Source of the DNA: Parvularcula lutaonensis
Lineage (GTDB): Bacteria; Pseudomonadota; Alphaproteobacteria; Caulobacterales; Parvularculaceae
NCBI RefSeq assembly: GCF_014651915.1
Contig: NZ_BMXU01000001.1
Coordinates: forward strand, 434,001-498,000
DNA: 64,000 nucleotides
Direction of reading: 5' to 3'
Shown: piece by piece, positions 40,630 through 47,018 of the stretch
Numbering within the stretch: the stretch's first letter is position 1
Layout of the letters: every line of letters starts with the position of its first letter
The notes under the pieces: model-generated
The model's input: only the letters and a program-made list of their open reading frames with translations
Databases searched by the model: none
What the model was told of the DNA's origin: nothing
Program-made: the position numbers and the translations under genes

Positions 40630-40706
40630 TGGTAGGGGCGGAGGGACTCGAACCCCCAACCTAGCGGTTATGAGCCGCCAGCTCTAACCAATTGAGCTAC
40701 ACCCCC
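40630..40706 (-). tRNA. tRNA with CAT anticodon (tRNA-Ile2 or elongator tRNA-Met)
   Basis: A 77-base cloverleaf including an encoded CCA. The acceptor stem is GGGGGTG with CGCCCCT, the D arm GTAGCTCAATTGGTTAGAGC, the anticodon loop CTCATAA with a 5-bp stem, and the T loop TTCGAGT. The anticodon is CAT. The first pair is G-U rather than the unpaired C-A of initiators, so it is not the initiator. The CTCATAA loop recalls tRNA-Ile2, read as isoleucine after lysidine modification; the acceptor end looks more like elongator Met. The isotype is left open. Confidence 0.93.
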
Positions 40707-45363: not shown

Positions 45364-45371
45364 CCATTCCT

Positions 45372-45430
45372 GCTCCTGGCTTTCAGGAGCGCTTGGATAG
45401 CTGCGGAGGTGATGACCAAGCCATCACCTC
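45372..45430 (+). ncRNA. Two tandem hairpins after fadJ, possible 3'-UTR small RNA (with the following terminator)
   Basis: GCTCCTG pairs with CAGGAGC (45372-45390, 7 bp, loop 5) and GAGGTGATG pairs with CATCACCTC (45406-45430, 9 bp, loop 7). With the terminator at 45462-45495 they form a compact structured unit of about 125 bases directly after the fadJ stop. Confidence 0.35.
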
Positions 45431-45461
45431 TGCACTCAGGGATCTCTTCGACGAGGTCATG

Positions 45462-45495
45462 CCCCAGGCCGAGGTCACGCTCGCCTGGGGTTTTT
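45462..45495 (+). terminator. Rho-independent terminator downstream of fadJ
   Basis: CCCCAGGC (45462-45469) pairs perfectly with GCCTGGGG (45483-45490), followed by TTTTT and CG. It likely ends the fadA-fadJ transcript or a small RNA processed from it. Confidence 0.8.
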
Positions 45496-45918
45496 CGTGT
45501 CAGCCTAACGGCCCCAGGCCCTGTGTCGCCTCGATCACAGGCTATCGCGACCGCTGCAACCCCCAGCATTCGGAGGGTGCCGCGTGTGCCGGACAATTTC
45601 CGCACGAGACCAAGGGAACCGGGATGAAGCTGAGCCATGCTGAAATCCGCCCTTGTCCCCCAGCCAAGGGTGCCCTTCGGGTCTGAGCGAGCGTGCACGC
45701 TCAGGCGAAGCTCTCTTGAGCAACTTGCGAGGTGTCGGTTTGGATCGCGCCGTCATCATCGAGGGTCAGCGCCGCCGGGTTTGGCCAGGCGTGCTGAAGC
45801 CTCAGACCATTTGGGAGACCTGATGGCCCACCGATCCTCGCGCTCGCCATCACCTCAACCATCCGCTATCACACCAAAGGTCTCTCGAAATGAGCGAGGG
45901 TGCTCAAGCGCGCAGGTC

Positions 45919-46401
45919 ATGGTTGATTTTCCCCAGACCACCGGCTGGAGGCAGACATCGGACCACGAAAGACGCAAATCCGTCCGCATTGCGCTTTTGC
46001 TCGCCGCATTTGGCGCAATCATGATCGCCGCATCGTTTGTGTTCCATCGCATGGACAATGCCTTCTTCGCATCGGCTGTTCCGACGACGGCGACCATCAC
46101 GGAAAAGCGTAAAGCCATAAAGCTCGATGGCGGGGGAGCCTTGAGGCTCGACTATGCCTTCGAAATCGACGAACGGGAGGCTGTCGGCGGCGACTTCTGG
46201 GGAGGGTCGGAGCGTGCGTTCGATGCGCTCGAGATCGGCGACACGGTCGAGATCGCCTATGTCATCATTGATGGTGGAAGGAGCTATGACAGCAGGCTCG
46301 TTACAGGCGCTCAGCTCGGGTTTCCCTACGGCATAGCGGGGATCGGCCTCGTCATGTTGGGCGCCGGGGCAGTGCTTGCCGTGCGGGCCATGCGCAAGTA
46401 G
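45919..46401 (+). CDS. DUF3592-like membrane protein
   Basis: About 160 residues with two membrane helices (IALLLAAFGAIMIAASFVF and GFPYGIAGIGLVMLGAGAVLAV) around an extracytoplasmic beta domain. That domain begins ASAVPTTATITEKRKAI and includes LDYAFEIDER and VEIAYVIIDGGRSYDSRLV. This matches the general plan of DUF3592 proteins, whose function is unknown. ATG 45919 has AGG 4 bases before it, a weak site; starts further upstream in frame exist but add a low-quality Arg/Ser-rich leader. Confidence 0.65.
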   Translation: MVDFPQTTGWRQTSDHERRKSVRIALLLAAFGAIMIAASFVFHRMDNAFFASAVPTTATITEKRKAIKLDGGGALRLDYAFEIDEREAVGGDFWGGSERAFDALEIGDTVEIAYVIIDGGRSYDSRLVTGAQLGFPYGIAGIGLVMLGAGAVLAVRAMRK

Positions 46402-46609: not shown

Positions 46610-46665
46610 AATCCGTAAAACAAGCAAAGCCCCGGCAGCGTCCTTGGCGACCGCTGCCGGGGCTT
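46610..46665 (-). terminator. Strong hairpin ending the structured RNA candidate
   Basis: On the minus strand a 14-bp perfect stem (AAGCCCCGGCAGCG with CGCTGCCGGGGCTT, loop 11) is followed by the T-rich TTTGCTTGTTTT run (the first two T belong to the stem). No protein gene on that strand precedes it. Confidence 0.7.
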
Positions 46666-46796
46666 CTGGCGCATATTCCTCAGGGCGGGTCCACCCCCTC
46701 GTGGACCATAGGAACGCTGCCGGCGCAGAACCAAGACTGATGGATGCGTTCTGTGGACGGCGATAAAGTCAGCAAGCGCCGGCTCTCGCCCCGGCA
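46652..46796 (-). ncRNA. Candidate structured RNA with a closing stem that competes with its terminator
   Basis: Read on the minus strand: P1 5' arm TGCCGGGGC (46796-46788), then GCCGGCGC with GCGCCGGC (46783-46776 and 46726-46719) enclosing CAGAAC with GTTCTG. Next comes GGTCCAC with GTGGACC (46707-46701 and 46694-46688), then the P1 3' arm GCCCCGGCA (46663-46655). All stems are perfect and nested into a three-way junction. The P1 3' arm is also the 5' arm of the terminator that follows, so the two folds exclude each other. It matches no RNA family I can name. Confidence 0.5.
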
Positions 46797-47018
46797 CCAA
46801 CTGACCAAGTCATATCTGTGTCCCACCCACCAGTTGCTCGGTTCAGCGGTTACTTCTCGCAATGAGTTCGAGGGGTGTAGGCAGTCATTCCCGAACTCGA
46901 TTATCCGAAGCCGTGTCAGATTTGACCGTTCGCCTCCAATTGCATTGTAAAATTCCGACACTCGGGCAAGAGAGGGGTGAAATCAGCCGGCGTTGAGGGG
47001 AGTGGCGGCTTTAGCGGA

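Follow-up and report, generated by a model that had tools for sequence, protein, structure and literature searches.

Closest described systems

A terminator-like hairpin with no preceding gene on the same strand is the usual sign of an orphan terminator or of a candidate small RNA (sRNA). Orphan terminators have served to predict sRNAs in Sinorhizobium meliloti, another alphaproteobacterium (PMC2573895). The feature described here resembles them in its GC-rich 14-bp stem, its T-rich tail and the lack of an assigned same-strand gene, but differs in having a long 11-nt loop and a T tail interrupted by GC and G. With transcription-attenuating riboswitches it shares a long-range stem that has an arm in common with a terminator; unlike them, it has neither a downstream sense gene nor a conserved aptamer, and here the terminator is strongly favoured and the layout occurs at chance level. 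6S RNA (RF00013) is of similar length but gives no match at the feature, and the Pseudomonas rnk leader (RF01772) matches only weakly, mostly on the terminator stem-loop; that match is below the cut-off, and no rnk gene follows the feature.

A lineage-specific gap between two plus-strand genes

The window is the whole stretch of DNA that was analysed, 64,000 nucleotides of a Parvularculaceae genome (G000:C1:434001-498000), and coordinates below are window positions unless a contig or locus is named. According to codon-based gene calls, the feature lies inside a 617-bp gap between a DUF3592-like gene and an AraC-family regulator, both on the plus strand:

45997-46401, plus strand: DUF3592-like neighbour, 134 aa (weak Pfam match, E 0.05, below the cut-off)
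46937-46960, plus strand: 24-bp element CATTGTAAAA..CCGACA upstream of the AraC gene, 92% shared with genome G006 (L081 283-306)
47019-47861, plus strand: AraC-family regulator, the other neighbour (Pfam)

The claim in the original prediction that no protein gene lies before or after the feature on the minus strand agrees with these calls, which place no minus-strand gene in or beside the gap. Minus-strand coding potential is likewise absent, and we rejected a small minus-strand protein because the two ORFs there, of 68 and 93 aa, have coding scores lower than background.

The DUF3592-like gene has no relative in 61 other genomes of the family, which places the proposed RNA in a lineage-specific stretch; the gene may be a recent acquisition, together with the flanking gap. 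Among the named genomes with a close FadB relative, the nearest by FadB is Parvularcula mediterranea (92% amino-acid identity), with 85.5% nucleotide identity around fadB. A truncated DUF1801-like remnant with a coding score near zero occupies positions 45369-45686 of the plus strand, and the corresponding gene is intact in P. mediterranea, directly after fadB (L015 8246-8623). The 24-bp element is probably a promoter or operator of the AraC regulator and lies outside the proposed RNA. It is common to the window and G006 despite the fact that their AraC-type regulators are only 40% identical, and a related sequence seems to be present in P. mediterranea as well.

An orphan terminator on the minus strand

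The feature centres on a single perfect hairpin:

46627-46665, minus strand: intrinsic terminator, 14-bp perfect hairpin with an 11-nt loop, arms AAGCCCCGGCAGCG and CGCTGCCGGGGCTT (stem 46665-46652/46640-46627)

On the minus strand, this GC-rich stem runs directly into a T tract, as in an intrinsic terminator: the tail after GGGGC is TTTGCTTGTTTT, in which 9 of 12 positions are T. On the plus side the tail is weak (TTCTGGCG). Perfect hairpins of at least 14 bp are rare, with three, this one included, in the 864 kb on which our genome statistics were computed (fetched as stretches of this genome), and one of the three lies inside a gene. Because its loop is 11 nt long, the hairpin is absent from a standard scan (loops of up to 8 nt) and was left out of our strict terminator tally (loops of up to 10 nt). 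That tally, over the same 864 kb, places 28 of 36 terminators downstream of a same-strand gene and counts three orphans. The hairpin is thus an orphan intrinsic terminator, a genuine outlier that points to the minus strand. Elsewhere in the genome, three other strong terminators without a preceding same-strand gene (G000:C1:66005-66032, 247580-247607 and 573780-573805) are possible ends of further small RNAs.

A hairpin of this kind could also act mainly on the plus strand, ending the DUF3592-like mRNA or protecting its 3′ end as a bidirectional element, with no separate minus-strand RNA. We consider this possible, if somewhat doubtful: the hairpin is nearly symmetric and would form a stem on either strand, we noticed no further good terminator on the way from the stop codon to the hairpin, and the same gap of P. 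mediterranea has a strong hairpin after its preceding plus-strand gene, but the plus-side tail TTCTGGCGCATA is T-poor and the stop codon lies about 225 nt upstream, which is far compared with most of the intergenic hairpins listed.

The three-way junction occurs at chance frequency

Upstream of the minus-strand terminator, the original prediction placed four nested perfect stems in a three-way junction and interpreted them as an attenuation riboswitch or an RNA with a built-in switch. The stems are as follows:

46788-46796, minus strand: 5′ arm of P1 (9 bp), TGCCGGGGC, also within the 5′ hairpin described below
46655-46663, minus strand: 3′ arm of P1, GCCCCGGCA, also within the 5′ arm of the terminator
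46719-46783, minus strand: P2, 8 bp (46783-46776/46726-46719), enclosing the inner stem
46726-46753, minus strand: inner stem, 6 bp (46753-46748/46731-46726), reduced to 5 bp (46752-46748/46731-46727) when P2 is complete
46688-46707, minus strand: P3 hairpin GGTCCAC-GAGGGG-GTGGACC, 7 bp (46707-46701/46694-46688), predicted probability at least 0.98 in every transcript tested

All four are present, and the placing of the P1 3′ arm within the 5′ arm of a 14-bp terminator with a T-rich tail is confirmed, but P2 and the inner stem both use base 46726, so that they can form as 8 + 5 or 7 + 6 bp and not as 8 + 6. Counted as a perfect stem of at least 9 bp around side-by-side stems of at least 8 and at least 7 bp, the layout turns up at 13 loci in the 864 kb, or about once per 64 kb, so that a window of this size should contain one. 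When the upstream stretch was shuffled 5000 times with its dinucleotides kept, a procedure that does not preserve repeated words, a 9-bp P1-like complement to the terminator arm arose in 59 cases and the full layout in none. Repeated words are prominent here: the 3′ arm of P2 and the 5′ arm of the terminator form a direct repeat matching at 13 of 15 positions, and GCCCCGGCAGCG or its complement recurs in four of the arms, with 10 to 12 of its 12 positions matching. Since the arms are mostly variants of this one word, the stems and their alternative pairings are not independent, and the best explanation for the three-way junction is alternative pairing of repeated GC-rich words, not a sensing domain.

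Folding favours the terminator over a switch

Without the terminator, the upstream 153 nt fold no better than shuffled sequences (z -0.83) and rank 110th among 494 intergenic windows of the same genome. The whole 197 nt reach z -3.96, mainly owing to the terminator and to a second hairpin that had been overlooked in the original prediction:

46767-46806, minus strand: 5′ hairpin, 40 nt, 15 bp (7 + 8, with single mismatches), -26.1 kcal/mol

This hairpin folds better than 998 of 1000 shuffles, the other two matching it. In it, the 5′ arms of P1 and P2 pair with each other, which consumes both. Accordingly, the predicted probability of P1 before the 3′ arm of the terminator is made depends on the start of the transcript: a start at 46900 gives a value close to 0, one at 46830 at most 0.03, one at 46806 0.12-0.8, and one at 46800 or 46796 a value close to 1. 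In these models, the 5′ hairpin is predicted to block P1 in any RNA whose start lies upstream of roughly 46810. With the whole terminator made, forming the junction instead of the best fold carries a penalty of 10-24 kcal/mol.

These calculations bear on the proposal of a switchable RNA in which P1 competes with the terminator. The arm shared by P1 and the terminator and the near-certain P1 in an RNA that starts at 46800 and ends before the terminator 3′ arm speak for it; the chance frequency of the layout, the removal of P1 by the 5′ hairpin for earlier starts, the energetic advantage of the complete terminator, and the lack of a downstream sense gene to control and of any conservation speak against it. 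We regard such a switch as very unlikely, and in the folding models a constitutive terminator fits better. We consider it extremely improbable that a recent, species-specific minus-strand RNA begins beside the AraC control region and alternates between the 5′ hairpin and P1, which would tune read-through.

Promoter and RNA-family searches

Searching the window with Rfam 15 at the gathering score returned only a tRNA (40633-40706) and nothing at the feature, in keeping with the earlier failure to recognise a known family. The best sub-threshold match, rnk_pseudo, scored 25.4 bits, where the cut-off is 55. 6S RNA was rejected, as its covariance model has no match in the window; the genome's single 6S match lies elsewhere (G000:C1:1301037-1301194, 54 bits).

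Compared with intergenic DNA across this genome, the best promoter match on the minus strand is only average. A trans-acting sRNA would have the terminator and this average promoter match. A species-specific sRNA of this type, with a defined fold made up of the 5′ hairpin, the P3 hairpin and the terminator and with RNAs or proteins as its targets, would be consistent with the rarity of the 5′ hairpin among shuffles, with the z score of the whole region and with the orphan-terminator logic applied to the S. meliloti sRNAs (PMC2573895). With no homologue found and no distinctive promoter, we think it unlikely.

No homologue in the relatives searched

Searches of 62 family, 398 order-level and 385 class-level genomes gave no homologue of the feature. 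By blastn there was no above-chance match in 60 relatives or in the 398 order and 385 class genomes, single-sequence covariance models gave none in the family and genus, and plasmids, phages and viral contigs contained no match. Because the order and class samples were drawn from larger groups, and because covariance searches of more than 40 genomes use stricter filters, weak or distant relatives may have been missed. The blastn matches in relatives are 22-34 nt long; those that we inspected overlap coding DNA on one strand or the other, namely a nusA-like gene (L005, L007) or predicted ORFs (L004, L006), and we judged them to be chance. The best outside matches of the covariance models reach at most 25 bits, and in the two best a terminator-like palindrome is the main part matched. 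The original prediction looked to related genomes for paired base changes and named loss of the stems without compensating changes as a refutation. The outcome largely corresponds to that refutation: the relatives lack the sequence altogether, which leaves no paired changes to count.

P. mediterranea keeps the gene order fadB, DUF1801-like gene, AraC regulator, and its syntenic gap could not be aligned with ours beyond a weak similarity of 30 nt. A covariance placement in that gap was rejected, since it shifts with the search settings and leaves no collinear match. In G006 the regulator directly follows fadB, and the only stretch in common is the 24-bp element before the AraC gene, which acts as a positive control: even a short regulatory sequence can be recognised between genomes this far apart, but the proposed RNA cannot. 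A hairpin in the P. mediterranea gap (L015 8638-8669) has the same CCCCTC hexaloop (plus strand) as the one at window 46688-46707. This loop is unique within the 864 kb, and the stems of the two hairpins differ; its position does not fit a collinear arrangement with the gap's other weak similarity, and on this comparison the likeness is probably a coincidence.

What the hairpin may mean

The reading that we tentatively prefer, at a probability of roughly 45%, is that of an intrinsic minus-strand terminator in a lineage-specific gap, which would constitutively end a non-coding RNA if this strand is transcribed. The analysis shows the hairpin with its T tail, the computed energies and the lack of conservation; transcription, termination and any function that the RNA might have are inferred. 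The transcript would begin in the gap or near the control region of the AraC regulator, and the terminator would fire whenever the minus strand is transcribed, yielding a non-coding product of roughly 190-280 nt and stopping it before it could run antisense through the DUF3592-like gene. As the feature is unconserved in every relative searched, the minus-strand transcript may also be nonexistent or noise.

The feature matters little beyond annotation: it marks a probable transcript end in a poorly studied genus. It also argues for caution in calling RNA switches from raw sequence, as nested perfect stems of this kind arise about once per 64 kb in a genome of 60% GC.
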